From positions 1,488,001 through 1,552,000 of the forward strand of contig OY987230.1 of NCBI GenBank assembly GCA_963920705.1: a DNA stretch of 64,000 nucleotides, written 5' to 3'. Position 1 is the first letter of the stretch; each line of letters opens with the position of its first letter. Source of the stretch: Odiellus spinosus (taxonomy: Eukaryota > Arthropoda > Arachnida > Opiliones > Phalangiidae). Of the stretch, positions 1-64,000 are shown in pieces. Position numbers and translations under genes: made by a program. The notes under the pieces were generated by a model. It was not told where the DNA came from and ran no database searches. It was given only the letters and a program-made list of their open reading frames with translations.

Positions 1-562
1 AAAATTCGCTTTTTGATATTAGATGTTTTTTGAATTGTCCATATTTTCCATGTTTTTCAACTGATTTTTGAAAACTCTTATTATTTAAACTGTCCATGAA
101 TTGCTCTTTCGAATGACTTTGGTTTTGTCTAAATTGCAAAATTGTGACAAATATAAAATTGGTTAAAATTAAGCAAAAACGCTTAAAAATCCAAGATTAT
201 TGGATTCAAATGGACACAAAACTTTTGATTTTTAAGCGATTTAGACAAAATTAAGACCACTCGAAAGAGCAAATATTGGTCTATCAAAAGAACAAGAGTT
301 TTGGAAAATCCGTTGGAAAACATGGAAAATATGGACAATTCAAAAAACATCTAATATCAAAAAGCGAATTTTTAAAATCTGAAATTTGACTATTTTGATA
401 TTGTATGATTTCTTGAATTGGCCATATTTTTCTTGTTTTTCAACGGATTTTTGAAAACTCTTATTATTTAGACTGTCCATTAATTGCTCTTTCGAATGAC
501 TTTGGTTTTGTCTAAATTGCAAAATTGTGACAACTATAAAATTGGTTAAAATTAAGCAAAAA

Positions 563-621
563 CGCTTAAAAATCCAAGATTATTGGATTCAAATGGACAC
601 AAAACTTTTGATTTTTAAGCG
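563..621 (+). repeat. Perfect 12-bp inverted repeat (hairpin) inside Q
   Basis: CGCTTAAAAATC at 563-574 pairs perfectly with GATTTTTAAGCG at 610-621 across a 35-nt loop. Most monomers keep it. Variants that break one arm exist, for example CGCCTAAAAATC near 2480, 11281 and 20079. In units where Q abuts the other arm type, the right arm reads GAATTTTAAGCG, which lowers the pairing. It could form a cruciform or RNA stem; no function can be read from sequence. Confidence 0.85.
572..588 (+). repeat. Small nested hairpin ATCCAA-5-TTGGAT
   Basis: Six-base arms (572-577 and 583-588) flank the five bases GATTA inside the loop of the larger hairpin. This makes it the near-centre of the Q dyad. It recurs in almost every unit. 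It is disrupted by a 3-bp insertion near 23151-23166 and 30421-30436. Confidence 0.75.
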
Positions 622-678
622 ATTTAGACAAAATTAAGACCACTCGAAAGAGCAAATATTGGTCTATCTAAAAAACAA

Positions 679-843
679 GAGTTTTGGAAAATCCGTTGAA
701 AAACATGGAAAATATGGACAATTCAAAAAACATCTAATATCAAAAAGCGAATTTTGAAAATCTGAAATTTGACTATTTTGATATTCTATGATTTCTTGAA
801 TTGGCCATATTTTTCTTGTTTTTCAACGGATTTTTGAAAACTC
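679..843. repeat. P module: 165-bp near-perfect palindrome, reference copy
   Basis: The left arm (679-760) and the reverse complement of the right arm (762-843) agree at roughly 85% of positions when one or two 1-bp gaps are allowed. Both ends read GAGTTTT inward. Consistent differences tell the arms apart: the left carries CATGGAAAATATGGAC and the right, reverse-complemented, carries CAAGAAAAATATGGCC. The dyad centre lies in AAAATCTGAAA near 761. Orientation switches of neighbouring Q cores fall in the outer part of this module, around CAACGGATTTT. Confidence 0.92.
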
Positions 844-1226
844 TTATTATTTAGACAGTCCATTAATTGCTCTTTCGAATGACTTTGGTTTTGTCTAAAT
901 TGCAAAATTGTGACAAATATAAAATTGGTTAAAATAAAGCAAAAACGCTTAAAAATCCAAGATTATTGGATTCAAATGGACACAAAACTTTTGATTTTTA
1001 AGCGATTTAGACAGAATTAAGACCACTCGAAAGAGCAAATATTGGTCTATCTAAAAAACAAGAGTTTTGGAAAATCCGTTGAAAAACATGGAAAATATGG
1101 ACAATTCAAAAAACATCTAATATCAAAAAGCGAATTTTTAAAATCTGAAATTTGACTATTTTGATATTGTATGATTTCTTGAATTGGCCATATTTTTCTT
1201 GTTTTTCAACGGATTTTCCAAAACTA

Positions 1227-1444
1227 TTGTTTTTTAGATAGACCAAAATTTGGTCTTTCGAGTGGTCTTAATTTTGTCTAAATCGCTTAAAATTCAAAAG
1301 TTTTGTGTCCATTTGAATCCAATAATCTTGGATTTTTAAGCGTTTTTGCTTAATTTTAACCAATTTTATATTTGTCACAATTTTGCAATTTAGACAAAAC
1401 CAAAGTCATTCGAAAGAGCAATTAATGGACAGTCTGAATAATAA
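1227..1444 (-). repeat. Inverted Q core 1
   Basis: First isolated inverted core. The upstream switch reads CAACGGATTTT then CCAAAACTATTG. The right side returns to forward after a P module in reverse sense. It carries a private AGTCTGAATAAT near 1430. Its flanking forward markers lie at 887 and 1653. Confidence 0.88.
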
Positions 1445-3140
1445 GAGTTTTCAAAAATCCGTTGAAAAACAAGAAAAATATGGCCAATTCAAGAAATCAT
1501 AGAATATCAAAATAGTCAAATTTCAGATTTTCAAAATTCGCTTTTTGATATTAGATGTTTTTTGAATTGTCCATATTTTCCATGTTTTTCAACGGATTTT
1601 TGAAAACTCTTATTATTTAAACTGTCCATTAATTGCACTTTCGAATGACTTTGGTTTTGTCTAAATTACAAAATTGTGACAAATATAAAATTGGTTAAAA
1701 TAAAGCAAAAACGTTTAAAATCCAAGATTATTGGATTCAAATGGACACAAAACTTTTGATTTTTAAGCGATTTAGACAAAATTAAGACCACTCGAAAGAG
1801 CAAATATTGGTCTATCTAAAAAACAAGAGTTTTGGAAAATCCGTTGAAAAACATGTAAAATATGTACAATTCAAAAAAACATCTAATATCAAAAAGCGAA
1901 TTTTGAAAATCTGAAATTTGACTATTTTGATATTCTATGATTTCTTGAATTGTCCATATTTTCCATGTTTTTCAACGGATTTTTGAAAACCCTTATTATT
2001 TAAACTGTCCATTAATTGCTCTTTCGAATGACTTTGGTTTTGTCTAAATTGCAAAATTGTGACAAATATAAAATTGGTTAAAATAAAGCAAAAACGCTTA
2101 AAAATCCAAGATTATTGGATTCAAATGGACACAAAACTTTTGATTTTTAAGCGATTTAGACAAAATTAAGACCACTCGAAAGAGCAAATATTGGTCTATC
2201 AAAAGAACAAGAGTTTTGGAAAATCCGTTGAAAAACATGGAAAATATGGACAATTCAAAAAACATCTAATATCAAAAAGCGAATTTTTAAAATCTGAAAT
2301 TTGACTATTTTGATACTGTATGATTTCTTGAATTGGCCATATTTTTCTTGTTTTTCAACGGATTTTTGAAAACTCTTATTATTTAGACTGTCCATTAATT
2401 GCTCTTTCGAATGACTTTGGTTTTGTCTAAATTGCAAAATTGTGACAACTATAAAATTGTTTAAAATAAAGCAAAAACGCCTAAAAATCCAAGATTATTG
2501 GATTCAAATGGACACAAAACTTTTGATTTTTAAGCGATTTAGACAAAATTAAGACCACTCGAAAGAGCAAATATTGGTCTATCTAAAAAACAAGAGTTTT
2601 GGAAAATCCGTTGAAAAACATGGAAAATATGGACAATTCAAAAAACATCTAATATCAAAAAGCGAATTTTGAAAATCTGAAATTTGACTATTTTGATATT
2701 CTATGATTTCTTGAATTGGCCATATTTTTCTTGTTTTTCAACGGATTTTTGAAAACTCTTATTATTTAGACTGTCCATTAATTGCTCTTTCGAATGACTT
2801 TGGTTTTGTCTAAATTGCAAAATTGTGACAAATATAAAATTGGTTAAAATAAAGCAAAAACGCTTAAAAATCCAAGATTATTGGATTCAAATGGACACAA
2901 AACTTTTGATTTTTAAGCGATTTAGACAAAATTAAGACCACTCAAAAGAGCAAATATTGGTCTATCTAAAAAACAAGAGTTTTGGAAAATCCGTTGAAAA
3001 ACATGGAAAATATGGACAATTCAAAAACATCTAATATCAAAAAGCGAATTTTTAAAATCTGAAATTTGACTATTTTGATATTGTATGATTTCTTGAATTG
3101 GCCATATTTTTCTTGTTTTTCAACGGATTTTCCAAAACTA

Positions 3141-3358
3141 TTGTTTTTTAGATAGACCAAAATTTGGTCTTTCGAGTGGTCTTAATTTTGTTTAAATCGC
3201 TTAAAATTCAAAAGTTTTGTGTCCATTTGAATCCAATAATCTTGGATTTTTAAGCGTTTTTGCTTAATTTTAACCAATTTTATATTTGTCACAATTTTGC
3301 AATTTAGACAAAACCAAAGTCATTCGAAAGAGCAATTAATGGACAGTCTAAATAATAA
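3141..3358 (-). repeat. Inverted Q core 2
   Basis: Isolated inverted core, five monomers after core 1 (1,914 bp). It has a private TTTTGTTTAAATCGC near 3185 in place of TTTTGTCTAAATCGC. The switch has the CAACGG/ACTATTG form. Confidence 0.88.
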
Positions 3359-3905
3359 GAGTTTTCAAAAATCCGTTGAAAAACAAGAAAAATATGGCCA
3401 ATTCAAGAAATCATAGAATATCAAAATAGTCAAATTTCAGATTTTCAAAATTCGCTTTTTGATATTAGATGTTTTTTGAATTGTCCATATTTTCCATGTT
3501 TTTCAACGGATTTTTGAAAACTCTTATTATTTAAACTGCCCATTAATTGCTCTTTCGAATGACTTTGGTTTTGTCTAAATTGCAAAATTGTGACAAATAT
3601 AAAATTGGTTAAAATTAAGCAAAAACGCTTAAAAATCCAAGATTATTGGATTCAAATGGACACAAAACTTTTGATTTTTAAGCGATTTAGACAAAATTAA
3701 GACCACTCGAAAGAGCAAATATTGGTCTATCTAAAAAACAAGAGTTTTGGAAATTCGTTGAAAAACATGGAAAATATGGACAATTCAAAAAACATCTAAT
3801 ACCAAAAAGCGAATTTTTAAAATCTGAAATTTGACTATTTTGATATTGTATGATTTTTTGAATTGGCCATATTTTTCTTGTTTTTCAACGGATTTTCCAA
3901 AACTA

Positions 3906-4123
3906 TTGTTTTTTAGATAAACCAAAATTTGGTCTTTCGAGTGGTCTTAATTTTGTCTAAATCGCTTAAAATTCAAAAGTTTTGTGTCCATTTGAATCCA
4001 ATAATCTTGGATTTTTAAGCGTTTTTGCTTAATTTTAACCAATTTTATATTTGTCACAATTTTGCAATTTAGACAAAACCAAAGTCATTCGAAAGAGCAA
4101 TTAATGGACAGTCTAAATAATAA
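3906..4123 (-). repeat. Inverted Q core 3
   Basis: Two monomers after core 2 (765 bp), leaving one forward core between them. This is the closest pair in the left domain. It has AGATAAACC instead of AGATAGACC at its left end. Confidence 0.88.
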
Positions 4124-6968
4124 GAGTTTTCAAAAATCCGTTGAAAAACAAGAAAAATATGGCCAATTCAAGAAATCATAGAATATCAAAATAGTCAAAT
4201 TTCAGATTTTCAAAATTCGCTTTTTGATATTAGATGTTTTTTGAATTGTCCATATTTTCCATGTTTTTCAACGGATTTTTGAAATCTCTTATTATTTAAA
4301 CTGTCCATTAATTGCTCTTTCGAATGACTTTGGTTTTGTCTAAATTGCAAAATTGTGACAAATATAAAATTGGTTAAAATTAAGCAAAAACGCTTAAAAA
4401 TCCAAGATTATTGGATTCAAATGGACACAAAACTTTTGATTTTTAAGCGATTTAGACAAAATTAAGACCACTCGAAAGAGCAAATATTGGTCTATCTAAA
4501 AAACAAGAGTTTTGGAAAATCCGTTGAAAAACATGGAAAATATGGACAATTCAAAAAACATCTAATATCAAAAAGCGAATTTTGAAAATCTGAAATTTGA
4601 CTATTTTGATATTCTATGATTTCTTGAATTGGCCATATTTTTCTTGTTTTTCAACGGATTTTTGAAAACTCTTATTATTTAGACTGTCCATTAATTGCTC
4701 TTTCGAATAACTTTGGTTTTGTCTAAATTGCAAAATTGTGACAAATATAAAATTGGTTAAAATAAAGCAAAAACGCTTAAAAATCCAAGATTATTGGATT
4801 CAAATGGACACAAAACTTTTGATTTTTAAGCGATTTAGACAAAATTAAGACCACTCGAAAGAGCAAATATTGGTCTATCTAAAAAACAAGAGTTTTGGAA
4901 AATCCGTTGAAAAACATGGAAAATATGGACAATTCAAAAAACATCTAATATCAAAAAGCGAATTTTTAAAATCTGAAATTTGACTATTTTGATATTGTAT
5001 GATTTCTTGAATTGGCCATATTTTTCTTGTTTTTCAACGGATTTTTGAAAACTCTTATTACTTAGACTGTCCATTAATTGCTCTTTCGAATGACGTTGGT
5101 TTTGTCTAAATTGCAAAATTGTGACAAATATAAAATTGGTTAAAATAAAGCAAAAACGCTTAAAAATCCAAGATTATTGGATTCAAATGGACACAAAACT
5201 TTTGATTTTTAAGCGATTTAGACAAAATTAAGACCACTCGAAAGAGCAAATATTGGTCTATCTAAAAAACAAGAGTTTTGGAAAATCCGTTGAAAAACAT
5301 AGAAAATATGGACAATTCAAAAAACATCTAATATCAAAAAGCGAATTTTGAAAATCTGAAATTTGACTATTTTGATATTCTATGATTTCTTGAATTGGCC
5401 ATATTTTTCTTGTTTTTCAACGGATTTTTGAAAACTCTTATTATTTAGACTGTCCATTAATTGCTCTTTCGAATGACTTTGGTTTTATCTAAATTGCAAA
5501 ATTGTGACAAATATAAAATTGGTTAAAATAAAGCAAAAACGCTTAAAAATCCAAGATTATTGGATTCAAATGGACACAAAACTTTTGATTTTTAAGCGAT
5601 TTAGACAAAATTAAGACCACTCGAAAGAGCAAATATTGGTCTATCAAAATAACAAGAGTTTTGGAAAATCCGTTGAAAAACATGGAAAATATGGACAATT
5701 CAAAAAACATCTAATATCAAAAAGCGAATTTTTAAAATCTGAAATTTGACTATTTTGATATTGTATGATTTCTTGAATTGGCCATATTTTTCTTGTTTTT
5801 CAACGGATTTTTGAAAACTCTTATTATTTAGACTATCCATTAATTGCTCTTTCGAATGACTTTGGTTTTGTCTAAATTGCAAAATTGTGACAACTATAAA
5901 ATTGGTTAAAATAAAGCAAAAACGCTTAAAAATCCAAGATTATTGGATTCTAATGGACACAAAACTTTTGATTTTTAAGCGATTTAGACAAAATTAAGAC
6001 CACTCGAAAGAGCAAATATTGGTCTATCTAAAAAACAAGAGTTTTGGAAAATCCGTTGAAAAACATGGAAAATATGGACAATTCAAAAAACATCTAATAT
6101 CAAAAAGCGAATTTTGAAAATCTGAAATTTGACTATTTTGATATTCTATGATTTCTTGAATTGGCCATATTTTTCTTGTTTTTCAACGGATTTTTGAAAA
6201 CTCTTATTATTTAGACTGTCCATTAATTGCTCTTTCGAATGACTTTGGTTTTGTCTAAATTGCAAAATTGTGACAAATATAAAATTGGTTAAAATTAAGC
6301 AAAAACGCTTAAAAATCCAAGATTATTGGATTCAAATGGACACAAAACTTTTGATTTTTAAGCGATTTAGACAAAAGTAAGACCACTCGAAAGAGCAAAT
6401 ATTGGTCTATCTAAAAAACAAGAGTTTTGGAAAATCCGTTGAAAAACATGGAAAATATGGACAATTCAAAAAACATCTAATATCAAAAAGCGAATTTTGA
6501 AAATCTGAAATTTGACTATTTTGATATTCTATGATTTCTTGAGTTGGCCATATTTTTCTTGTTTTTCAACGGATTTTTGAAAACTCTTATTATTTAGTCT
6601 GTCCATTTATTGCTCTTTCGAATGACTTTGGTTTTGTCTAAATTGCAAAATTGTGACAAATATAAAATTGGTTAAAATAAAGCAAAAACGCTTAAAAATC
6701 CAAGATTATTGGATTCAAATGGACACAAAACTTTTGATTTTTAAGCGATTTAGACAAAATTAAGACCACTCGAAAGAGCAAATATTGGTCTATCTAAAAA
6801 ACAAGAGTTTTGGAAAATCCGTTGAAAAACATGGAAAATATGGACAATTCAAAAACATCTTATATCAAAAAGCGAATTTTTAAAATCTGAAATTTGACTA
6901 TTTTGATATTGTATGATTTCTTGAATTGGCCATATTTTTCTTGTTTTTCGACGGATTTTCCAAAACTA

Positions 6969-7186
6969 TTTTTTTTTAGATAGACCAAAATTTGGTCTTT
7001 CGAGTGGTCTTAATTTTGTCTAAATCGCCTAAAATTCAAAAGTTTTGTGTCCATTTGAATCCAATAATCTTGGATTTTTAAGCGTTTTTGCTTAATTTTA
7101 ACCAATTTTATATTTGTCACAATTTTGCAATTTAGACAAAACCAAAGTCATTCGAAAGAGCAATTAATGGACAGTCTAAATAATAA
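6969..7186 (-). repeat. Inverted Q core 4 (first with CGACGG / poly-T marker)
   Basis: The switch carries two shared private changes, CGACGG for CAACGG and a nine-T run before AGATAGACC, plus CGCCTAAAATTC. Many later inverted cores share the first two, pointing to one founding inversion copied many times. Confidence 0.88.
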
Positions 7187-8881
7187 GAGTTTTCAAAAAT
7201 CCGTTGAAAAACAAGAAAAATATGGCCAATTCAAGAAATCATAGAATATCAAAATAGTCAAATTTCAGATTTTCAAAATTCGCTTTTTGATATTAGATGT
7301 TTTTGGAATTGTCCATATTTTCCATGTTTTTCAACGGATTTTTGAAAACTCTTATTATTTAAACTGTGCATTAATTGCTCTTTCGAATGACTTTGGTTTT
7401 GTCTAAATTGCAAAATTGTGACAAATATAAAATTGGTTAAAATAAAGCAAAAACGCTTAAAAATCCAAGATTATTGGATTCAAATGGACACAAAACTTTT
7501 GATTTTTAAGCGATTTAGACAAAATTAAGACCACTCGAAAGAGCAAATATTGGTCTATCTAAAAAACAAGAGTTTTGGAAAATCCGTTGAAAAACATGGA
7601 AAATATGGACAATTCAAAAAACATCTAATATCAAAAAGCGAATTTTGAAAATCTTAAATTTGACTATTTTGATATTCTATGATTTCTTGAATTGGCCATA
7701 TTTTTCTTGTTTTTCAACGGATTTTTGAAAACTCTTATTATTTAGACTGTCCATTAATTGCTCTTTCGAATGACTTTGGTTTTGTCTAAATTGCAAAATT
7801 GTGACAAATATAAAATTGGTTAAAATTAAGCAAAAACGCTTAAAAATCCAAGATTATTGGATTCAAATGGACACAAAACTTTTGATTTTTAAGCGATTTA
7901 GACAAAAGTAAGACCACTCGAAAGAGCAAATATTGGTCTATCTAAAAAACAAGAGTTTTGGAAAATCCGTTGAAAAACATGGAAAATATGGACAATTCAA
8001 AAAACATCTAATATCAAAAAGCGAATTTTGAAAATCTGAAATTTGACTATTTTGATATTCTATGATTTCTTGAGTTGGCCATTTTTTTCTTGTTTTTCAA
8101 CGGATTTTTGAAAACTCTTATTATTTAGTCTGTCCATTTATTGCTCTTTCGAATGACTTTGGTTTTGTCTAAATTGCAAAATTGTGACAAATATAAAATT
8201 GGTTAAAATAAAGCAAAAACGCTTAAAAATCCAAGATTATTGGATTCAAATGGACACAAAACTTTTGATTTTTAAGCGATTTAGACAAAATTAAGACCAC
8301 TCGAAAGAGCAAATATTGGTCTATCTAAAAAACAAGAGTTTTGGAAAATCCGTTAAAAAACATGGAAAATATGGACAATTCAAAAAACATCTAATATCAA
8401 AAAGCGAATTTTGAAAATCTGAAATTTGACTATTTTGATATTCTATGATTTCTTGAGTTGGCCATATTTTTCTTGTTTTTCAACGGATTTTTGAAACTCT
8501 TATTATTTAGACTGTCCATTAATTGCTCTTTCGAATGACTTTGGTTTTGTCTAAATTGCAAAATTGTGACAAATATAAAATTGGTTAAAATAAAGCAAAA
8601 ACGCTTAAAAATCCAAGATTATTGGATTCAAATGGACACAAAACTTTTGATTTTTAAGCGATTTAGACAAAATTAAGACCACTCGAAAGAGCAAATATTG
8701 GTCTATCTAAAAAACAAGAGTTTTGGAAAATCCGTTGAAAAACATGGAAAATATGGACAATTCAAAAACATCTTATATCAAAAAGCGAATTTTTAAAATC
8801 TGAAATTTGACTATTTTGATATTGTATGATTTCTTGAATTGGCCATATTTTTCTTGTTTTTCGACGGATTTTCCAAAACTA

Positions 8882-9099
8882 TTTTTTTTTAGATAGACCA
8901 AAATTTGGTCTTTCGAGTGGTCTTAATTTTGTCTAAATCGCCTAAAATTCAAAAGTTTTGTGTCCATTTGAATCCAATAATCTTGGATTTTTAAGCGTTT
9001 TTGCTTAATTTTAACCAATTTTATATTTGTCACAATTTTGCAATTTAGACAAAACCAAAGTCATTCGAAAGAGCAATTAATGGACAGTCTAAATAATAA
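8882..9099 (-). repeat. Inverted Q core 5
   Basis: Carries CGACGG, the poly-T run and CGCCTAAAATTC, as core 4 does. It lies 1,913 bp after core 4 and is matched by core 8 exactly 6,503 bp downstream. Confidence 0.88.
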
Positions 9100-9482
9100 G
9101 AGTTTTCAAAAATCCGTTGAAAAACAAGAAAAATATGGCCAATTCAAGAAATCATAGAATATCAAAATAGTCAAATTTCAGATTTTCAAAATTCGCTTTT
9201 TGATATTAGATGTTTTTGGAATTGTCCATATTTTCCATGTTTTTCAACGGATTTTTGAAAACTCTTATTATTTAAACTGTCCATTAATTGCTCTTTCGAA
9301 TGACTTTGGTTTTGTCTAAATTGCAAAATTGTGACAAATATAAAATTGGTTAAAATTAAGCAAAAACGCTTAAAAATCCAAGATTATTGGATTCAAATGG
9401 ACACAAAACTTTTGATTTTTAAGCGATTTAGACAAAATTAAGACCACTCGAAAGAGCAAATATTGGTCTATCTAAAAAACAA

Positions 9483-9647
9483 GAGTTTTGGAAAATCCGT
9501 TGAAAAACATGGAAAATATGGACAATTCAAAAAACATCTAATATCAAAAAGCGAATTTTGAAAATCTGAAATTTGACTATTTTGATATTCTATGATTTCT
9601 TGAATTGTCCATATTTTCCATGTTTTTCAACGGATTTTTGAAAACTC
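9483..9647. repeat. Symmetrised P module (both arms CATGG type)
   Basis: Here the right arm carries TCCATATTTTCCATG, normally found only on the left arm (as its complement). This removes the diagnostic mismatches and gives a 39-bp perfect stretch in the two arms, from AAAATCCG to CAATTCAA. Similar hybrids occur near 1836-2000, 11.0-11.2, 13.3-13.5, 16.0-16.2, 17.5-17.7, 19.8-20.0 and 21.7-21.9 kb. Crossover or gene conversion between inverted arms would produce this. Confidence 0.85.
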
Positions 9648-10412
9648 TTATTATTTAGACTGTCCATTAATTGCTCTTTCGAATGACTTTGGTTTTGTCT
9701 AAATTGCAAAATTGTGACAACTATAAAATTGGTTAAAATAAAGCAAAACGCTTAAAAATCCAAGATTATTGGATTCAAATGGACACAAAACTTTTGATTT
9801 TTAAGCGATTTAGACAAAATTAAGACCACTCGAAAGAGCAAATATTGGTCTATCTAAAAAACAAGAGTTTTGGAAAATCCGTTGAAAAACATGGAAAATA
9901 TGGACAATTCAAAAAACATCTAATATCAAAAAGCGAATTTTGAGAATCTGAAATTTGACTATTTTGATATTCTATGATTTCTTGAATTGGCCATATTTTT
10001 CTTGTTCTTCAACGGATTTTTGAAAACTCTTATTATTTAGACTGTCCATTAATTGCTCTTTCGAATGACTTTGGTTTTGTCTAAATTGCAAAATTGTGAC
10101 AAATATAAAATTGGTTAAAATAAAGCAAAAACGCTTAAAAATCCAAGATTATTGGATTCAAATGGACACAAAACTTTTGATTTTTAAGCGATTTAGACAA
10201 AATTAAGACCACTCGAAAGAGCAAATATTGGTCTATCAAAAGAACAAGAGTTTTGGAAAATCCGTTGAAAAACATGGAAAATATGGACAATTCAAAAAAC
10301 ATCTAATATCAAAAAGCGAATTTTTAAAATCTGAAATTTGACTATTTTGATATTGTATGATTTCTTGAATTGGCCATATTTTTCTTGTTTTTCGACGGAT
10401 TTTCCAAAACTA

Positions 10413-52396: not shown

Positions 52397-54920
52397 GAGT
52401 TTTCAAAAATCCGTTGAAAAACAAGAAAAATATGGCCAATTCAAAAAACATCTAATATCAAAAAGCGAATTTTTAAAATCTGAAATTTGACTATTTTGAT
52501 ATTGTATGATTTCTTGAATTGGCCATATTTTTCTTGTTTTTCAACGGATTTTTGAAAACTCTTATTATTTAGACTGTCCATTAATTGCTCTTTCGAATGA
52601 CTTTGGTTTTGTCTAAATTGCAAAATTGTGACAAATATAAAATTGGTTAAAATTAAGCAAAAACGCTTAAAAATCCAAGATTATTGGATTCAAATGGACA
52701 CAAAACTTTTGATTTTTAAGCAATTTAGACAAAATTAAGACCACTCGAAAGAGCAAATATTGGTCTATCTGTAAATCAAGAGTTTTGGAAAATCCGTTGA
52801 AAAACATGGAAAATATGGACAATACAAAAAACATCTAATATCAAAAAGCGAATTTTTAAAATCTGAAATTTGACTATTTTGATATTGTATGATTTCTTGA
52901 ATTGGCCATATTTTTCTTGTTTTTCAACGGATTTTTGAAAACTCTTATTATTTAGACTGTCCATTAATTGCTCTTTCGAATGACTTTGGTTTTGTCTAAA
53001 TTGCAAAATTGTGACAAATATAAAATTGGTTAAAACTAAGCAAAAACGCTTAAAAATCCAAGATTATTGGATTCAAATGGACACAAAACTTTTGAATTTT
53101 AAGCGATTTAGACAAAATTAAGACCACTCAAAAGACCAAATTTTGGTCTATCTAAAAAACAATAGTTTTGGAAAATCCGTTGAAAAACAAGAAAAATATG
53201 GCCAATTCAAGAAATCATACAATATCAAAATAGTCAAATTTCAGATTTTCAAAATTCGCTTTTTGATATTACATGTTTTTTGAATTGTCAATATTTTCCA
53301 TGTTTTTCAACGGATTTTCCAAAACTCTTGTTTTTTAGATCGACCAATATTTGCTCTTTCGAGTGGTCTTAATTTTGTCTAAATCGCTTAAAAATCAAAA
53401 GCTTTGTGTCCATTTGAATCCAATAATCTTGGATTTTTAAGCGTTTTTGCTTTATTTTAACCAATTTTATATTTGTCACAATTTTGCAATTTAGACAAAA
53501 CCAAAGTCATTCGAAAGAGCAATTAATGGACAGTCTAAATAATAAGAGTTTTCAAAAATCCGTTGAAAAACAAGAAAAATATGGCCAATTCAAGAAATCA
53601 TAGAATATCAAAATAGTCAAATTTCAGATTTTCAAAATTCGCTTTTTGATTTTAGATGTTTTTTGAATTGTCCATATTTTCCATGTTTTTCAACGGATTT
53701 TTAAAAACTCTTATTATTTAAACTGTCCATTAATTGCTCTTTCGAATGACTTTGGTTTTGTCTAAATTGCAAAATTCTGACAAATATAAAATTGGTTAAA
53801 ATAAAGCAAAAACGCTTAAAAATCCAAGATTATTGGATTCAAATGGACACAAAACTTTTGATTTTTAAGCGATTTAGACAAAATTAAGACCACTCGAAAG
53901 AGCAAATATTGGTCTATCTAAAAAACAAGAGTTTTGGAAAATCCGTTGAAAAACATGGAAAATATGGACAATTCAAAAAACATCTAATATCAAAAAGCGA
54001 ATTTTTAAAATCTGAAATTTGACTATTTTGATATTCTATGATTTCTTGAATTGGCCATATTTTTCTTGTTTTTCAACGGATTTTTGAAAACTCTTATTAT
54101 TTAGACTGTCCATTAATTGCTCTTTCGAATGACTTTGGTTTTGTCTAAATTGCAAAATTGTGACAAATATAAAATTGGTTAAAATTAAGCAAAAACGCTT
54201 AAAAATCCAAGATTATTGGATTCAAATGGACACAAAACTTTTGAATTTTAAGCGATTTAGACAAAATTAAGACCACTCGAAAGACCAAATTTTGTTCTAT
54301 CTAAAAAACAATGGTTTTGGAAAATCCGTTGAAAAACAAGAAAAATATGGCCAATTCAAGAAATCATAGAATATCAAAATAGTCAAATTTCAGATTTTAA
54401 AAATTCGCTTTTTGATATTAGATGTTTTTTGAATTGTCCATATTTTCCATGTTTTTCAACGGATTTTTGAAAACTCTTATTATTTAAACTGTCCATTAAT
54501 TGCTCTTTCGAATGACTTTGGTTTTGTCTAAATTGCAAAATTGTGACAAATATAAAATTGGTTAAAATAAAGCAAAAACGCTTAAAAATCCAAGATTATT
54601 GGATTCAAATGGACACAAAACTTTTGATTTTTAAGCGATTTAGACAAAATTAAGACCACTCGAAAGAGCAAATATTGGTCTATCTAAAAAACAAGAGTTT
54701 TGGAAAATCCGTTGAAAAACATGGAAAATATGGACAATTCAAAAAACATCTAATATCAAAAAGCGAATTTTTAAAATCTGAAATTTGACTATTTTGATAC
54801 TGTATGATTTCTTGAATTGGCCATATTTTTCTTGTTTTTCAACGAATTTTTGAAAACTATTGTTTTTTAGATAGACCAAAATTTGGTCTTTCGAGTGGTC
54901 TTAATTTTTTCTAAATCGCT
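52241..54920. repeat. Seven-monomer duplication, copy 2 (offset 2,681 bp)
   Basis: Immediately follows copy 1 and keeps the same variants at +2,681 bp, including the isolated inverted core at 53328-53545. Differences are few (TTAAAACTAAGC near 53031 and CAGATTTTC rather than CTGATTTTC near 53242), indicating a recent event. Confidence 0.85.
53328..53545 (-). repeat. Isolated inverted Q core (53.3 kb), copy of the 50.6-kb core
   Basis: Exactly 2,681 bp after its partner, with the same TTAGATCGACC and AAAAGCTTTGTG changes. Confidence 0.88.
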
Positions 54921-55842
54921 TAAAATTCAAAAGTTTTGTGTCCATTTGAATCCAATAATCTTGGATTTTTAAGCGTTTTTGCTTAATTTTAACCAATTTT
55001 ATATTTGTCACAATTTTGCAATTTAGACAAAACCAAAGTCATTCGAAAGAGCAATTTATGGAGAGTTTAAATAATAAGAGTTTTCAAAAATCCGTTGAAA
55101 AACATGGAAAATATGGACAATTCAAAAAACATCTAATATCAAAAAGCGAATTTTGAAAATGTGAAATTTGACTATTTTGATATTGTATGATTTCTTGAAT
55201 TGGCCATATTTTTCTTGTTTTTCAACGGATTTTCCAAAACTATTGTTTTTTAGATAGACCAAAATTTGGTCTTTCGAGTGGTCTTAATTTTGTCTAAATC
55301 GCTTAAAATTCAAAAGTTTTGTGTCCATTTGAATCCAATAATCTTGGATTTTTAAGCGTTTTTGCTTAATTTTAACCAATTTTATATTTGTTACAATTTT
55401 GCAATTTAGACAAAACCAAAGTCATTCGAAAGAGCAATTAATGGACAGTTTAAATAATAAGAGTTTTCAAAAATCCGTTGAAAAACATGGAAAATATGGA
55501 CAATTCAAAAAACCTCTAATATCAAAAAGCGAATTTTGAAAATCTGAAATTTGACAATTTTATATTGTATGATTTCTTGAATTGGCCATATTTTTCTTGT
55601 TTTTCAACGGATTTTCCAAAACTATTGTTTTTTAGATAGACCAAAATTTGGTCTTTCGAGTGGTCTTAATTTTGTCTAAATCGCTTAAAATTCAAAAGTT
55701 TTGTGTCCATTTGAATCCAATAACCTTGGATTTTTAAGCGTTTTTGCTTAATTTTAACCAATTTTATATTTGTCACAATTTTGCAATTTAGACAAAACCA
55801 AAGTCATTCGAAAGAGCAATTAATGGACAGTCTTAATAATAA
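54860..55842 (-). repeat. Run of three inverted cores
   Basis: Marker ends at 55034, 55417 and 55799. The first has GCAATTTATGGAGAG and resembles 40.7 kb. The P module after the second core has AACCTCTAATATC and the shortened GACAATTTTATATTG, both copied 1,148 bp downstream. TTTGTTACAATT near 55389 is private. Confidence 0.88.
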
Positions 55843-56390
55843 GAGTTTTCAAAAATCCGTTGAAAAACAAGAAAAATATGGCCAATTCAAGAAATCATAG
55901 AATATCAAAATAGTCAAATTTCAGATTTTCAAAATTCGCTTTTTGATATTAGATGTTTTTTGAATTGGCCATATTTTCCATGTTTTTCAACGGATTTTTG
56001 AAAACTCTTATTATTTAAACTGTCCATTAATTGCTCTTTCGAATGACTTTGGTTTTGTCTAAATTGCAAAATTGTGACAAATATAAAATTGGTTAAAATA
56101 AAGCAAAAACGCTTAAAAATCCATGATTATTGGATTCAAATGGACACAAAACTTTTGATTTTTAAGCGATTTAGACAAAATTAAGACCACTCGAAAGAGC
56201 AAATATTGGTCTATCTAAAAAACAAGAGTTTTGGAAAATACGTTGAAAAACATGGAAAATATGGACAATTCAAAAAACATCTAATATCAAAAAGCGAATT
56301 TTGAAAATCTGAAATTTGACTATTTTGATATTGTATGATTTCTTGAATTGGCCATGTTTTTCTTGTTTTTCAACGGATTTTCCAAAACTA

Positions 56391-57373
56391 TTGTTTTTTA
56401 GATAGGCCAAAATTTGGTCTTTCGAGTGGTCTTAATTTTGTCTAAATCGCTTAAAATTCAAAAGTTTTGTGTCCATTTGAATCCAATAATCTTGGATTTT
56501 TAAGCGTTTTTGCTTAATTTTAACCAATTTTATATTTGTCACAATTTTGCAATTTAGACAAAACCAAAGTCATTCGAAAGAGCAATTAATGGACAGTTTA
56601 AATAATAAGAGTTTTCAAAAATCCGTTGAAAAACATGGAAAATATGGACAATTCAAAAAACCTCTAATATCAAAAAGCGAATTTTGAAAATCTGAAATTT
56701 GACAATTTTATATTGTATGATTTCTTGAATTGGCCATATTTTTCTTGTTTTTCAACGGATTTTCCAAAACTATTGTTTTTTAGATAGACCAAAATTTGGT
56801 CTTTCGAGTGGTCTTAATTTTGTCTAAATCGCTTAAAATTCAAAAGTTTTGTGTCCATTTGAATCCAATAATCTTGGATTTTTAAGCGTTTTTGCTTAAT
56901 TTTAACCAATTTTATATTTGTCACAATTTTGCAATTTAGACAAAACCAAAGTCATTCGAAAGAGCAATTAATGGACAGTTTAAATAATAAGAGTTTTCAA
57001 AAATCCGTTGAAAAACATGGAAAATATGGACAATTCAAAAAACATCTAATATCAAAAAGCGAATTTTTAAAATCTGAAATTTGACTATTTTGATATTCTA
57101 TGATTTTTTGAATTGGCCATATTTTTCTTGTTTTTCAACGGATTTTCCCAAACTATTGTTTTTTAGATAGACCAAAATTTGGTCTTTCGAGTGGTCTTAA
57201 TTTTGTCTAAATCGCTTAAAATTCAAAAGTTTTGTGTCCATTTGAATCCAATAATCTTGGATTTTTAAGCGTTTTTGCTTAATTTTAACCAATTTTATAT
57301 TTGTCACAATTTTGCAATTTAGACAAAACCAAAGTCATTCGAAAGAGCAATTAATGGACAGTCTAAATAATAA
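56391..57373 (-). repeat. Run of three inverted cores (partly a copy at +1,148 bp)
   Basis: Marker ends at 56565, 56947 and 57330. The first two correspond to 55417 and 55799 at +1,148 bp and share the 1-bp-shortened P centre. The first has AGATAGGCC near 56401. One forward core (gap 55843-56390) separates the two runs. Confidence 0.88.
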
Positions 57374-59450
57374 GAGTTTTCAAAAATCCGTTGAAAAACA
57401 AGAAAAATATGGCCAATTCAAGAAATCATACAATATCAAAATAGTCAAATTTCAGATTTTAAAAATTCGCTTTTTGATATTAGATGTTTTTTGGATTGGC
57501 CATATTTTTCTTGTTTTTCAACGGATTTTTGAAAACTCTTATTATTTAGACTGTCCATTAATTGCTCTTTCGAATGACTTTGGTTTTGTCTAAATTGCAA
57601 AATTGTGACAAATATAAAATTGGTTAAAATTAAGCAAAAACGCTTAAAAATCCAAGATTATTGGATTCAAATGGACACAAAACTTTTGATTTTTAAGCGA
57701 TTTAGACAAAATTAAGACCACTCGAAAGAGCAAATATTGGTCTATCTGAAAATCAAGAGTTTTGGAAAATCCGTTGAAAAACATGGAAAATATGGACAAT
57801 TCAAAAAACATCTAATATCAAAAAGCGAATTTTGAAAATCTGAAATTTGACTATTTTGATATTCTATGATTTCTTTAATTGGCCATATTTTTCTTGTTTT
57901 TCAACGGATTTTTGAAAACTTATTATTTAGACTGTCCATTAATTGCTCTTTCGAATGACTTTGGTTTTGTCTAAATTGCAAAATTGTGACAAATATAAAA
58001 TTGGTTAAAATTAAGCAAAAAGGCTTAAAAATCCAAGATTATTGGATTCAAATGGACACAAAACTTTTGAATTTTAAGCGATTTAGACAAAATTAAGACC
58101 ACTCGAAAGACCAAATTTTGGTCTATCTAAAAAACAATAGTTTTCAAAAATCCGTTGAAAAACAAGAAAAATATTTCCAATTCAAGAAATCATACAATAT
58201 CAAAATAGTCAAATTTCAGATTTTCAAAATTCGCTTTTTGATATTAGATGTTTTTTGAATTGTCCATATTTTCCATGTTTTTCAACGGATTTTTGAAAAC
58301 TCTTATTATTTAAACTGTTCATTAATTGCTCTTTCGAATGACTTTGGTTTTGTCTAAATTGCAAAATTGTGACAAATATAAAATTGGTTAAAATTAAGCA
58401 AAAACGCTTAAAAATCCAAGATTATTGGATTCAAATGGACACAAAACTTTTGAATTTTAAGCGATTTAGACAAAATTAAGACCACTCGAAAGACCAAATT
58501 TTGGTCTATCTAAAAAACAATAGTTTTGGAAAATCCGTTGAAAAACAAGAAAAATATGGCCAATTCAAGAAATCATACAATATCAAAATAGTCAAATTTC
58601 AGATTTTCAAAATTCGCTTTTTGATATTAGATGTTTTTTGAATTGTCCATATTTTCCATGTTTTTCAACGGATTTTTGAAAACTCTTATTATTTAAACTG
58701 TCCATTAATTGCTCTTTCGAATGACTTTGGTTTTGTCTAAATTGCAAAATTGTGACAAATATAAAATTGGTTAAAATTAAGCAAAAACGCTTAAAAATCC
58801 AAGATTATTGGATTCAAATGGACACAAAACTTTTGAATTTTAAGCGATTTAGACAAAATTAAGACCACTCGAAAGACCAAATTTTGGTCTATCTAAAAAA
58901 CAATAGTTTTGGAAAATCCGTTGAAAAACAAGAAAAATATGGCCAATTCAAGAAATCATACAATATCAAAATAGTCAAATTTCAGATTTTCAAAATTCGC
59001 TTTTTGATATTAGATGTTTTTTGAATTGTCCATATTTTCCATGTTTTTCAACGGATTTTTGAAAACTCTTATTATTTAAACTGTCCATTAATTGCTCTTT
59101 CGAATGACTTTGGTTTTGTCTAAATTGCAAAATTGTGACAAATATAAAATTGGTTAAAATTAAGCAAAAACGCTTAAAAATCCAAGATTATTGGATTCAA
59201 ATGGACACAAAACTTTTGAATTTTAAGCGATTTAGACAAAATTAAGACCACTCGAAAGACCAAATTTTGGTCTATCTAAAAACAATAGTTTTGGAAAATC
59301 CGTTGAAAAACATGGAAAATATGGACAATTCAAAAAACATCTAATATCAAAAAGCGAATTTTGAAAATCTGAAATTTAACTATTTTGATATTGTATGATT
59401 TCTTGAATTGGCCATACTTTTCTTGTTTTTCAACGGATTTTTGAAAACTA
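57374..59450 (+). repeat. Forward run of five cores, mostly with P reversed (Q+P-)
   Basis: Markers at 58346, 58729 and 59112 are exactly 383 bp apart. In the last four units Q is forward with GAATTTTAAGCG and GACCAAATTTTGGTC. For the first three of these the P module that follows is in reverse sense (TCATACAATATC then GATATTAGATG). The units near 58.4-59.2 kb are almost identical, indicating a recent local amplification of this state. Confidence 0.88.
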
Positions 59451-60051
59451 TTGTTTTTTAGATAGACCAAAATTTGGTCTTTCGAGTGGTCTTAATTTTG
59501 TCTAAATCGCTTAAAATTCAAAAGTTTTGTGTCCATTTGAATCCAATAATCTTAGATTTTTAAGCGTTTTTGCTTAATTTTAACCAATTTTATATTTGTC
59601 ACAATTTTGCAATTTAGACAAAACCAAAGTCATTCGAAAGAGCAATTAATGGACAGTTTAAATAAAAAGAGTTTTCAAAAATCCGTTGAAAAACATGGAA
59701 AATATGGACAATTCAAAAAACATCTAATATCAAAAAGCGAATTTTGAAAATCTGAAATTTGACTATTTTGATATTGTATGATTTCTTGAATTGGCCATAT
59801 TTTTCTTGTTTTTCAACGGATTTTCCAAAACTATTGTTTTTTAGATAGACCAAAATTTGGTCTTTCGAGTGGTCTTAATTTTGTCTAAATCGCTTAAAAT
59901 TCAAAAGTTTTGTGTCCATTTGAATCCAATAATCTTGGATTTTTAAGCGTTTTTGCTTAATTTTAACCAATTTTATATTTGTCACAATTTTGCAATTTAG
60001 ACAAAACCAAAGTCATTCGAAAGAGCAATTAATGGACAGTCTAAATAATAA
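59451..60051 (-). repeat. Run of two inverted cores
   Basis: Marker ends at 59625 and 60008, 383 bp apart. The first has AATCTTAGATTTTTAAGCG and GTTTAAATAAAAAG. The second begins a stretch that resembles 57.2-57.8 kb at +2,678 bp. Confidence 0.88.
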
Positions 60052-60982
60052 GAGTTTTCAAAAATCCGTTGAAAAACAAGAAAAATATGGCCAATTCAAG
60101 AAATCATACAATATCAAAATAGTCAAATTTCAGATTTTAAAAATTCGCTTTTTGATATTAGATGTTTTTTGAATTGGCCATATTTTTCTTGTTTTTCAAC
60201 GGTTTTTTGAAAACTCTTATTATTTAGACTGTCCATTAATTGCTCTTTCGAATGACTTTGGTTTTGTCTAAATTGCAAAATTGTGACAAATATAAAATTG
60301 GTTAAAATTAAGCAAAAACGCTTAAAAATCCAAGATTATTGGATTCAAATGGACACAAAACTTTTGATTTTTAAGCGATTTAGACAAAATTAAGACCACT
60401 CGAAAGAGCAAATATTGGTCTATCTGAAAATCAAGAGTTTTGGAAAATCCGTTGAAAAGCATGGAAAATATGGACAATTCAAAAAACATCTAATATCAAA
60501 AAGCGAATTTTTAAAATCTGAAATTTGACTATTTTGATATTCTATGATTTCTTGAATTGTCCATATTTTCCATGTTTTTCAACGGATTTTTGAAAACTCT
60601 TATTATTTAAACTGTCCATTAATTGCTCTTTCGAATGACTTTGGTTTTGTCTAAATTGCAAAATTGTGACAAATATAAAATTGGTTAAAATTAAGCAAAA
60701 ACGCTTAAAAATCCAAGATTATTGGATTCAAATGGACACAAAACTTTTGAATTTTAAGCGATTTAGACAAAATTAAGACCACTCGAAAGACCAAATTTTG
60801 GTCTATCTAAAAAACAATAGTTTTGGAAAATCCGTTGAAAAACAAGAAAAATATGGCCAATTCAAGAAATCATACAATATCAAAATAGTCAAATTTCAGA
60901 TTTTCAAAATTCGCTTTTTGATATTAGATGCTTTTTGAATAGTCCATATTTTCCATGTTTTTCAACGGATTTTCCAAAACTC
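60052..60982 (+). repeat. Forward stretch, two monomers
   Basis: Two forward cores with CTATCTGAAAATCAAG in the first and the switched end GACCAAATTTTGGTC in the second. TTGAAAAGCATGG near 60456 and GATGCTTTTTGAATAGTCC near 60926 are private changes in the P arms. Confidence 0.85.
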
Positions 60983-63497
60983 TTGTTTTTTAGATAGACC
61001 AATATTTGCTCTTTCGAGTGGTCTTAATTTTGTCTAAATCGCTTAAAAATCAAAAGTTTTGTGTCCATTTGAATCCAATAATCTTGGATTTTTAAGCGAT
61101 TTTGCTTAATTTTAACCAATTTTATATTTGTCACAATTTTGCAATTTAGACAAAACCAAAGTCATTCGAAAGAGCAATTAATGGACAGTTTAAATAATAA
61201 GAGTTTTCAAAAATCCGTTGAAAAACATGGAAAATATGAACAATTCAAAAAACATCTAATATCAAAAAGCGAATTTTGAAAATCTGAAATTTGACTATTT
61301 TGATATTCTATGATTTCTTGAATTGGCCATATTTTTCTTGTTTTTCAACGGATTTTTGAAAACTCTTATTATTTAGACTGTCCATTAATTGCTCTTTCGA
61401 ATGACTTTGGTTTTGTCTCAATTGCAAAATTGTGACAAATATAAAATTGGTTAAAATTAAGCAAAAACGCTTAAAAATCCAAGATTATTGGATTCAAATG
61501 GACACAAAACTTTTGATTTTTAAGCGATTTAGACAAAATTAAGACCACTCGAAAGAGCAAATTTTGGTCTATCTAAAAAACAATAGGTTTGGAAAATCCG
61601 TTGAAAAACAAGAAAAATATGGCCAATTCAAGAAATCATACAATATCAAAATAGTCAAATTTCAGATTTTCAAAATTCGCTTTTTGATATTAGATGTTTT
61701 TTGAATTGTCCATATTTTTCTTGTTTTTCAACGGATTTTCCAAAACTATTGTTTTTTAGATAGACCAAAATTTGGTCTTTCGAGTGGTCTTAATTTTGTC
61801 TGAATCGCTTAAAATTCAAAAGTTTTGTGTCCATTTGAATCCAATAATCTTTAATTTTTAAGCGTTTTTGCTTAATTTTAACCAATTTTATATTTGTCAC
61901 AATTTTGCAATTTAGACAAAACCAAAGTCATTCGAAAGAGCAATTAATGGACAGTCTAATAATAAGAGTTTTCAAAAATCCGTTGAAAAACAAGAAAAAT
62001 ATGGCCAATTCAAGAAATCATACAATATCAAAATAGTCAAACTTCAGATTTTAAAAATTCGCTTTTTGATATTAGATGTTTTTTGAATTGGCCATATTTT
62101 TCTTGTTTTTCAACGGATTTTTGAAAACTCTTATTATTTAGACTGTCCATTAATTGCTCTTTCGAATGACTTTGGTTTTGTCTAAATTGCAAAATTGTGA
62201 CAAGTATAAAATTGGTTAAAATTAAGCAAAAACGCTTAAAAATCCAAGATTATTGGATTCAAATGGACACAAAACTTTTGAATTTTAAGCGATTTAGACA
62301 AAATTAAGACCACTCGAAAGAGCAAATATTGGTCTATCTAAATAACAAGAGTTTTGGAAAATCCGTTGAAAAACATGGAAAATATGGACAATTCAAAAAA
62401 CATCTAATATCAAAAAGCGAATTTTGAAAATCTGATATTTGACTATTTTGATATTGTATGATTTCTTGAATTAGCCATATTTTTCTTGTTTTTCAACGGA
62501 TTTTCCAAAACTATTGTTTTTTAGATAGACCAAAATTTGGTCTTTCGAGTGGTCTTAATTTTGTCTAAATCTCTTAAAATTCAAAAGTTTTGTGTCCATT
62601 TGAATCCATTAATCTTGGATTTTTAAGCGTTTTTGCTTAATTTTAACCAATTTTATATTTGTCACAATTTTGCAATTTAGACAAAACCAAAGTCATTCGA
62701 AAGAGCAATTAATGGACAGTCTAAATAATAAGAGTTTTCAAAAATCCGTTGAAAAACAAGAAAAATATGGCCAATTCAAAAAACATCTAATATCAAAAAG
62801 CGAATTTTGAAAATCTGAAATTTGACTATTTTGATATTCTATGATTTCTTGAATTGTCCATATTTTTCTTGTTTTTCAACGGATTTTTGAAAACTCTTAT
62901 TATTTAGACTGTCCATTAATTGCTCTTTCGAATGACTTTGGTTTTGTCTAAATTGCAAAATTGTGCCAAATATAAAATTGGTTAAAATTAAGCAAAAACG
63001 CTTAAAAATTCAAGATTATTGGATTCAAATGGACACAAAACTTTTGAATTTTAAGCGATTTAGACAAAATTAAGATAACTCGAAAGAGCAAATATTGGTC
63101 TATCTAAAAAACAAGAGTTTTGGAAAATCCGTTGAAAAACATGGAAAATATGGACAATTCAAAAAACATCTAATATCAAAAAGCGAATTTTTAAAATCTG
63201 AAATTTGACTATTTTGATATTGTATGATTTCTTGAATTGGCCATATTTTTCTTGTTTTTCAACGGATTTTGGAAAACTATTGTTTTTTAGATAGACCAAA
63301 ATTTGCTCTTTCGAGTGGTCTTAATTTTGTCTAAATCACTTAAAATTCAAAAGTTTTGTGTCCATTTGAATCCATTAATCTTGGATTTTTAAGCGTTTTT
63401 GCTTAATTTTAACCAATTTATTATTTGTCACAATTTTGCAATTTAGACAAAACCAAAGTCATTCGAAAGAGCAATTAATGGACAGTCTAAATAATAA
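60983..63497. repeat. Strictly alternating region: 766-bp head-to-head dimers
   Basis: Inverted cores at 60983-61200, 61749-61966, 62514-62731 and 63280-63497 are separated by single forward cores, with inverted marker ends at 61157, 61923, 62688 and 63454 (steps of 766, 765, 766). The higher-order unit is therefore a two-monomer inverted pair. Several units also have distinctive substitutions (TTAGCCATATT, AAATCTCTTAAAATTC, AATCTTTAATTTT), so this end is more diverged than the rest. Confidence 0.88.
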
Positions 63498-64000
63498 GAG
63501 TTTTCAAAAATCCGTTGAAAAACAAGAAAAATATGGCCAATTCAAAAAACATCTAATATCAAAAAGGGAATTTTGAAAATCTGAAATTTGACTATTTTGA
63601 TATTCTATGATTTCTTGAATTGTCCTTATTTTTCTTGTTTTTCAACGGATTTTTGAAAACTCTTATTATTTAGACTGTCCATTAATTGCTCTTTCGAATG
63701 ACTTTGGTTTTGTCTAAATTGCAAAATTGTGACAAATATAAAATTGGTTAAAATTAAGCAAAAACGCTTAAAAATCCAAGATTATTGGATTCAAATGGAC
63801 ACAAAACTTTTGATTTTTAAGCGATTTAGACAAAATTAAGACCACTCGAAAGAGCAAATATTGGTCTATCTAAAAAACAAGAGTTTTGGAAAATCCGTTG
63901 AAAAACATGGAAAATATGGACAATTCAAAAAACATCTAATATCAAAAAGCGAATTTTTAAAATCTGAAATTTGACTATTTTGATATTGTATGATTTCTTG
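63498..64000 (+). repeat. Forward repeat running off the window end
   Basis: A P module with AAAAAGGGAATTT (private), a complete forward core, and most of a further P module that stops at the window edge. There is no sign of a unique flank. Confidence 0.9.

Follow-up and report, generated by a model that had tools for sequence, protein, structure and literature searches.

The window analysed here, a 64,000-base stretch of the Odiellus spinosus assembly, is filled by a tandem repeat that TRF places at 11-64000 with a period of 383 bp and 167.1 copies. Orientation was called by a two-orientation circular alignment over all 64,000 bases, which resolves each monomer into two tiles, P of 129 bp and Q of 254 bp, that flip separately and whose borders are inverted copies of an 18-bp box, TGTTTTTCAACGGATTTT; we placed the tile limits at the box centres. 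The principal features are as follows.

1..64000, both orientations: 383-bp satellite array (TRF), decoded segments 96-100% identical to the two-orientation consensus
1..36434, + strand: mostly + domain, with 77 Q+P+ and 18 Q-P- monomers
761..1143, + strand: canonical (F) monomer, from one P dyad centre to the next, folding as one hairpin
817..834, + strand: left 18-bp box TGTTTTTCAACGGATTTT at the P/Q boundary, the longest stretch of perfect arm-to-arm identity
826..1079, + strand: example Q tile, 254 bp, of which the middle ~104 bp form the asymmetric part
1071..1088, - strand: inverted copy of TGTTTTTCAACGGATTTT, right box at the Q/P boundary
1080..1208, + strand: example P tile, 129 bp, with its limits at the box centres
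1200..1582, - strand: first reversed Q-P- unit that is complete; its two borders both fall in the left box
7127..21188, + strand: duplication 6,503 bp apart that carries reversed units along (13630-21188 matches 7127-14686 at 98.9%)
36435..64000: mosaic domain in which P and Q tiles switch separately, with 76 switches
42173..42460: sole mixed Q tile of the window; at 288 bp it includes a 35-bp local duplication and one step out of register

Two modules that change orientation in register

Decoding gave 110 Q tiles in the + orientation, 56 in the - orientation and one mixed, nearly the split of about 111 to 56 given by the first-pass annotation, and the persistence of the 383-bp register claimed there is confirmed by tile lengths of 252-257 bp in 165 of 167 Q tiles and 127-130 bp in 166 of 168 P tiles. 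P is not orientation-free either: 115 P tiles are +, 41 are - and 11 are mixed. The same decoder found no switch in 30 simulated uniform monomers carrying 2% mutation or in six real uniform arrays (L005, L016, L018, L019, L021 and L024), so the switches in the window are not an artefact of decoding. All 37 switches counted before 36.4 kb lie in the left box zone, and the 18 complete reversed units of that domain are without exception Q-P- pairs that begin and end in this zone. One 3-kb window of the duplication is 100% identical between its copies. Because these 18 units are uniform in type and were in part duplicated 6,503 bp apart, the 56 reversed Q copies need not equal 56 events. The common Q-P- unit does not result from a single simple inversion.

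Dyad architecture of the monomer

Self-alignment and folding both reveal dyad symmetry at the level of the whole monomer. The two half-monomers are inverted homologues over ~140 bp on each side of the P centre, with an arm identity of 77% at 0-54 and 74-140 bp from that centre and of 95% in between, where the 18-bp box zone lies. The outer Q arms (offsets 83-150 paired with their mirror) reach a score of 37, the best of 500 shuffles being -4, whereas the central ~104 bp of Q align with their inverse no better than shuffles do. The division first proposed, a 165-bp palindrome and a 218-bp asymmetric core, is therefore too generous about the asymmetry, which is confined to those ~104 bp. Folded as single-stranded DNA, the monomer at 761..1143 reaches -93.8 kcal/mol, while 100 shuffles give -34.7 (sd 4.0), a z of -14.9. 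A reading of the box as a protein site under special conservation is disfavoured, as its columns do not stand out as the best conserved in the monomer: of 383 windows of 18 bp, 31 lie lower than the left box and 158 lower than the right box.

Uniform and mixed arrays across the genome

Satellite arrays are usually pictured as running one way. This satellite fills megabases of the genome, with an estimated ~56,000 copies and 45,903 exact matches to a central 26-mer, and both the window and the sampled satellite loci consist of the long tandem arrays of one unit that define satellite DNA. The sampled loci, which were picked by best matches and by position rather than randomly, differ from one another, some being uniform and others near random in Q orientation. 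In mixed arrays a run of one orientation lasts one to a few monomers, and the Q autocorrelation is 0.06 at lag 1 (n=318). Longer domains of one orientation are also present (L005, L020). Both tile orientations occur in 10 of 10 2-kb samples from 0-3.0 Mb of contig C6, within whose block the uniform array L005 also sits; one end of C6 is (TTAGG)n. The loci L035 and L036, which are without satellite, were left out of every count, L037-L041 are not satellite, and L011 and L012 were counted as mixed in the tests of linkage and of tiles switched at both ends and left out of the Q autocorrelation.

Switch junctions and their linked variants

Of 31 sequences examined, 24 contain switches, 366 in all. 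These occupy only 21 offsets, and 282 of them lie in the box zones; switches placed at random in simulation occupied 74 offsets, and a box zone drawn slightly wider took in 26 of 118. These counts exclude switches less than 40 bp from a sequence end and the first 4 kb of L023, a locus that was also left out of the column counts. Two box classes predominate among the switches, a further class sits at offsets 33/339, and there are a handful of other classes.

Switched boundaries carry variants that unswitched boundaries largely lack. At the a-end of the sampled tiles, site 93 is A in 126 of 131 switched and 21 of 491 unswitched cases; at the b-end, two of the three marker bases were present in 33 of 526 matched ends. 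Exact-string counts over the whole genome repeat this pattern in both junction classes. RF switched boundaries comprise 5,843 with A and 346 with G (marker in 5,843/6,189), compared with 762 A and 35,502 G (762/36,264) at unswitched boundaries matching that class, and FR switched boundaries comprise 7,517 with the marker and 1,398 without (total 8,915), compared with 459 and 41,158 (total 41,617) at their unswitched counterparts. By linkage and by genome-wide counts alike, these are conserved and diverged inversion junctions. In the arm alignment the markers do not match what the other arm has at the mirror position, which indicates that the other arm was not their supplier. Association with the switch decays along the tile, from an r2 of 0.87 at site 301 to ~0.5 at sites 280, 274 and 234, and is 0.06 between the two tile ends (291 of 362 tiles, those with a mixed-state neighbour having been dropped). 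The 16% of FR switches (1,398/8,915) and 6% of RF switches (346/6,189) that lack the marker imply that further origins or later exchanges exist, and some further flips beyond any founders are possible.

Two further observations concern the distribution of switches among tiles and segments. Q tiles switched at both ends are rarer than expected in mixed arrays (29 versus 46.5, Fisher P = 1.8e-5), and segments that carry several switches recur at ~98% identity within and between contigs, including a 6.6-kb stretch with 6-7 switches common to contigs C157 and C6 at 98.2%.

A foldback transposon carrying the same monomers

Monomers of 383 bp are also found inside dispersed copies of a foldback transposon, which combine long terminal inverted repeats (TIRs) containing tandem repeats with target-site duplications. 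Among the 27 exact TIR ends are 13 inward-facing pairs, and the four element copies that were fetched contain 383-bp monomers of ~92-96% identity in an inverted layout. Target duplications of 9 bp flank all three copies for which both flanks were fetched, L046 being the fourth copy. In L044 the 1,054-bp arms are 100% complementary and contain 149-bp tandem repeats, and the longest open reading frame listed encodes 97 aa.

Origin of the mixed orientation

We consider it probable that a few founder switches, kept in register by the dyad monomer, spread through copying. In this reading the satellite is of pericentromere type, with an inverted dimer as its monomer, and would have undergone exchange or template switching between antiparallel stretches at mirror positions. 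Strand polarity would thereby change, and the 383-bp register would survive, since each half of the monomer is homologous to the other in mirror image. A small number of switches, mostly in the 18-bp box, would have been founded in this way and then tagged by variants arising on them, the marker presumably being the derived allele. Tandem duplication, unequal exchange and exchange between chromosomes could subsequently have copied and shuffled these founders until orientation in mixed arrays approached randomness at the scale of the monomer. In a toy simulation of 40 runs per scenario, copying by itself produced mixed arrays in 0/40 runs, copying with segment inversion in 1/40 (r2 1.00), copying with 2% flips in 22/40 (median r2 0.91) and flips without copying in 40/40 (r2 0.01); the median tag frequency of 0.00 under copying with 2% flips indicates a tag that had become rare or had disappeared in those runs. 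Copying alone thus failed to reproduce the data in this model, and this counts against the founder reading, as do the unmarked switches, the matched b-ends with two marker bases and the form of the common Q-P- unit. A broader proposition, which we advance tentatively, is that a monomer homologous to its own reverse complement makes the array blind to polarity, leaving orientation freely shuffled and junction variants as a record of exchange. If so, antiparallel arrays would recombine in register and founder variants would log exchange within and between chromosomes.

The first-pass annotation suggested that exchange between neighbouring P copies could invert the intervening Q. Its anatomical core fares well, as most switch points do lie in box zones of the palindromic P arms and the dyad offers a natural reason for the preserved register. 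An ongoing and reversible version of this process, in which orientation remains live, could also draw on the near-random orientation of mixed arrays, on the unmarked switches and on the toy runs that became mixed under copying with rare flips, and nevertheless seems unlikely to us. Free flipping would erase the variants linked to switched boundaries in the sampled tiles and genome-wide, flips-only runs lose this association, and P flips as well; a Q tile with both ends switched is the direct product expected of a Q flip, so the deficit of such tiles also argues against free Q inversion. The foldback element presents a different potential source, having either delivered monomers to the arrays both ways round or founded the satellite, with its inverted layout giving rise to the switches. 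The paired TIR ends, the inverted monomers and the target duplications are compatible with such a role, for which Tetris and TIR-220 as described in PMC4079207 provide a precedent, and yet the junction at the centre of the element breaks the register, R offset 45 joining F 186 in two copies and R 196 joining F 337 in the remaining pair, unlike the array switches. This difference in junction layout argues against the element as their direct source. The TIR, furthermore, has no match in the window or in L005-L034, the 27 exact ends all fall outside C6, C47, C54, C71, C100, C112, C157, C158 and C261, none of 752 array Q tiles has more than one of six element-typical bases, and capture of the satellite by the element is equally possible, all of which makes origin from the element quite improbable. 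Mirror-arm polarisation, tried for element-to-array polarity, gave 1 informative site of 9.

Selection for the dyad layout and mixed orientation, for instance through a hairpin or cruciform at the centromere, would accord with the very strong single-strand hairpin, with the presence of both orientations in every C6 sample and with similar proposals for Tribolium satellites (PMC13081366). Uniform stretches exist, however, even within the C6 block, and the box columns lack exceptional conservation, and we regard this explanation as very unlikely. Satellite arrays are often misassembled, and an assembly or library artefact would have to account for a few junction classes recurring every one to a few monomers on several contigs alongside uniform arrays that were also assembled; at this density the switches should fall well inside single long reads, and an artefact appears extremely unlikely.

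Relation to other satellites

Rfam returned 0 matches at the gathering score, two monomers showed no similarity to phage records, and a 26-letter box pattern had 0 matches in each of the genome-contig and viral-contig collections. The window has no exact match on either strand to the CENP-B box, TTCGNNNNANNCGGG, and does not resemble a CENP-B-box satellite in this respect. Literature searches for a 383-bp satellite listed a plant paper in which "383 bp" occurs once (PMC12406709) and two papers that appear unrelated by title.

The closest parallel is in Tribolium madens, where PMC13081366 describes a TmSat2 monomer that is a large imperfect palindrome, TmSat1/TmSat2 arrays that change orientation, and conserved inversion sites that have diverged from the normal subunits, at 12 positions in the case of INV_2, and proposes exchange between arrays on different chromosomes. 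The harvestman satellite shares the monomer-level dyad and diverged junctions resembling founder junctions. In contrast to the inverted subarrays of several kilobases reported there, of which an array mostly has two, mixed arrays here lack few, kilobase-long inverted subarrays and switch every one to a few monomers; by comparison of the descriptions, the separate flipping of two modules of one monomer with the register kept is also a difference. The same paper cites a 385-bp satellite with 80-bp inverted repeats in Trichogramma brassicae, a unit of nearly the same length, and a 1061-bp satellite with ~470-bp inverted segments in Tribolium brevicornis, both similar in dyad symmetry as described, and its discussion of them makes no mention of orientation shuffling.

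Because the orientation of every tile can be read directly and most switches are tagged, long reads would allow rates of exchange between arrays, chromosomes and opposite strands to be measured. The satellite also allows a further test of the Tribolium-based idea that dyad layout matters at (peri)centromeres, where it may itself have a role. The dispersed element, in turn, may be a second case of a foldback transposon linked to a satellite. According to PMC4079207, Tetris of Drosophila virilis is a non-coding foldback transposon whose long TIRs contain tandem repeats that also form satellite-like TIR-220 arrays. The harvestman element resembles it in its long TIRs and tandem repeats and in target duplications of 9 bp, compared with 8-10 bp in Tetris, and differs in scale, with TIR-220 arrays reaching up to 66 copies and the array copies here estimated at ~56,000.

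Results and Discussion

A single 383-bp satellite makes up the window (C6:1488001-1552000, in a 443-Mb genome assembled in 286 contigs), and its monomer matches its own reverse complement at 69% along its length, with a score of 449 (best of 30 shuffles, 40). When split at the centre of the P module, the two half-monomers are 77% identical over 0-54 bp, 95% over 54-74 bp and 77% over 74-140 bp; beyond that, over ~52 bp per half, similarity between the halves is not above shuffles. The monomer is therefore an inverted dimer in which only ~104 bp at the middle is asymmetric, and the first-pass annotation's division into a 165-bp palindrome and a 218-bp asymmetric core does not hold, as the dyad reaches ~140 bp per side. 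The predicted single-strand fold is one hairpin of -93.8 kcal/mol, compared with -34.7 (s.d. 4.0) in 100 shuffles. The longest identity between the arms is an 18-bp perfect match, TGTTTTTCAACGGATTTT (the box), which splits the monomer into a P tile of 129 bp and a Q tile of 254 bp.

Circular two-orientation alignment of the window decoded 113 switches, which partition it into 43,944 bp of one polarity and 20,056 bp of the opposite one; 74 of these switches could be resolved only to within the box or its mirror. Q tiles number 110 +, 56 - and one mixed, in agreement with the roughly 111/56 reported from first inspection, and P tiles 115 +, 41 - and 11 mixed. The array up to 36.4 kb is predominantly + (77 Q+P+ monomers, 18 Q-P-) and the left box zone holds 37/37 of the switches counted there; beyond that point, with 76 switches, P and Q tiles flip separately. 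The window also contains a duplication spaced 6,503 bp apart, with 100% identity across one 3-kb interval.

Twenty 10-kb pieces from nine contigs (L005-L024) were surveyed for comparison. Switches were absent from L005, L016, L018, L019, L021, L024 and the satellite portion of L023, few in L006 (4), L017 (4) and L020 (6), and many in L007-L015 and L022 (10 to 32 per piece). Within mixed arrays, Q orientation has an autocorrelation of 0.06 at lag 1 (n=318), not exceeding 0.13 at lags 2-7, whereas that of P orientation is -0.28 at lag 1 (n=243). In L006, positions 1-3489 and 6512-10000 are 99.97% identical over 3,489 bp at a spacing of 6,511 bp, cut by the piece ends, an identity that would make amplification there very recent. 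At L023 1 to ~2060 (contig C158), a uniform satellite array borders dissimilar sequence, part of which is GC-rich and contains runs of G.

Both orientations were present in 10/10 2-kb samples across C6:0-3.0 Mb, and L005 (10 kb, C6 1438-1448 kb) is uniform despite lying inside this block. The satellite was absent from single 1-kb C6 samples at 3.5, 4, 4.5, 5 and 6 Mb and from a 2-kb sample at 8 Mb; by these samples, the array therefore begins at the contig start and stops between 3.0 and 3.5 Mb. The ends of the 24.9-Mb contig contrast, with satellite at one and (TTAGG)n near the other (399 units across the 2 kb of L036, C6:24907001-24909000), a placement that would fit a chromosome with its (peri)centromere at one end. 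Genome-wide, a 26-mer from the centre of Q is present 23,106 + 22,797 times; sampled sequence containing 752 Q tiles has it 615 times, from which we estimate, by scaling from a non-random sample, ~56,000 copies, or 21 Mb and 5% of the genome.

A set of 31 sequences yielded 366 switches, confined to 21 offsets: 282 in the box zones, 43 at offsets 33/339, 32 at offsets 75/298 and nine others. Randomly placed simulated switches occupied 74 offsets, with 26/118 inside a slightly wider box zone. Two rare offset-98 switches in L014 (5359 and 6715) give a long near-perfect palindrome within Q.

Switched boundaries carry linked variants. In the sampled sequence, site 93 is A in 126/131 Q ends facing a P of opposite polarity and in 21/491 matched ends; at the other Q end, 147/165 switched ends have C-T at 274/280 plus T or a gap at 301, and among 526 matched ends 4 have C-T-T and 33 more have C-T with G. 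Exact strings counted genome-wide gave 5,843 A and 346 G when switched against 762 and 35,502 when matched for site 93, and 7,517 marked and 1,398 unmarked against 459 and 41,158 for the other end. The unmarked share of switched boundaries, 6% for one kind of switch (RF) and 16% for the other (FR), leaves room for additional switch origins; L017 and L020, both near-uniform, supply six of seven sampled unmarked FR strings, and L022 the seventh. In the alignment of the half-monomers, the mirror-arm positions hold bases other than the marker bases, so the markers were not acquired from that arm by copying in a flip. Inspection by eye shows the unmarked alleles in a stray copy, which suggests, without proving it, that the markers are the derived state:

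C1:1799501-1801000, 696 to about 1306 of the piece (L043): short stray satellite, away from arrays; one border is a box start

The correlation of variants with the switch declines along the tile (r2 of 0.87, then about 0.5, and 0.06 between the two ends). Mixed arrays show a deficit of Q tiles with a switch at each end (29 observed, 46.5 expected, P = 1.8e-5) and a slight excess of such P tiles (58 observed, 49.6 expected, P = 0.06). Contigs C157 and C6 have in common a 6.6-kb segment at 98.2% identity that contains 6-7 switches, and the duplication inside the window is a further case of a recurring multi-switch segment.

Because switches occupy few offsets, carry linked markers, show a both-ends deficit in Q and recur in multi-switch segments, we read them as descending from few founders and spreading by copying. 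The first-pass proposal that Q is inverted repeatedly and freely by exchange between P copies is not favoured, given the linked markers and the deficit of doubly switched Q tiles. In toy simulations, flipping alone gave mixed arrays in 40/40 runs with an r2 of 0.01, copying alone in 0/40, copying with segment inversion in 1/40, and copying with 2% flips in 22/40 with a median r2 of 0.91, though at a median tag frequency of 0.00. At the founding events, antiparallel repeats exchanging at mirror positions would stay in register; a single-tile inversion, occurring once, would yield one FR and one RF junction jointly, and the common Q-P- unit would take either two flips of tiles or a detour through an array of opposite orientation. 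The FR lineage differs from GACCAATATTTGCTC by two changes to GACCAAAATTTGGTC, a sequence with perfect complementarity between its 7-bp arms (180 copies, with 477 canonical and intermediates of 11 and 2); this is compatible with hairpin-templated synthesis, but only suggestive of it.

According to PMC13081366, macro-dyad arrays had been documented exclusively in Tribolium. As described there, T. madens satellites resemble this one in having dyad monomers and inversion sites that are conserved and diverged, and differ in forming subarrays kilobases long, unlike the monomer-scale shuffling seen here. Among the matches listed from the open-licence literature, no title or abstract start describes monomer-scale in-register orientation shuffling.

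A genome-wide string count also located dispersed satellite copies of fixed layout on large contigs, and all four loci fetched contain a foldback (long-TIR) element with 383-bp monomers:

L044 595-5458, contig C1: foldback element
L045 322-5176, contig C5: foldback element
L046, contig C2: foldback element
L047 487-6007, contig C3: foldback element

The element ends in GGCTCCGTCAACTTGGCCCCCCC. In L044 its 1,054-bp arms are 100% complementary, 149-bp tandem repeats are followed by the 383-bp monomers, and the longest listed ORF is 97 aa. Across the four loci the monomers are inverted about the centre, with identity of about 92-96%; the L044 and L045 copies are 99.8% alike on different contigs, and 9-bp target duplications flank L044, L045 and L047 (3/3 copies retrieved with both flanks). 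The 36-letter end occurs 27 times genome-wide, as 13 inward pairs 3.6-5.8 kb apart and one single, in an exact-match search that diverged ends escape. Satellite strings lie inside at least 7/13 pairs (the four fetched loci, C2:2.55 Mb, C4:19.30 Mb and C5:7.09 Mb). Tetris (PMC4079207) is a precedent for a foldback element carrying satellite monomers. Nine clear differences separate element from array monomers; six hardly occur outside the element and the other three (143C, 147A and 148C) co-occur in 55/752 array tiles, a pattern that points to related monomers, with transfer conceivable in either direction. Within L044, a satellite monomer holds, beside the box, an insert of ~115 bp (2345-2459) that contains a palindrome, is flanked on both sides by GGATTTTCCAAA and looks like a small inverted-repeat element.
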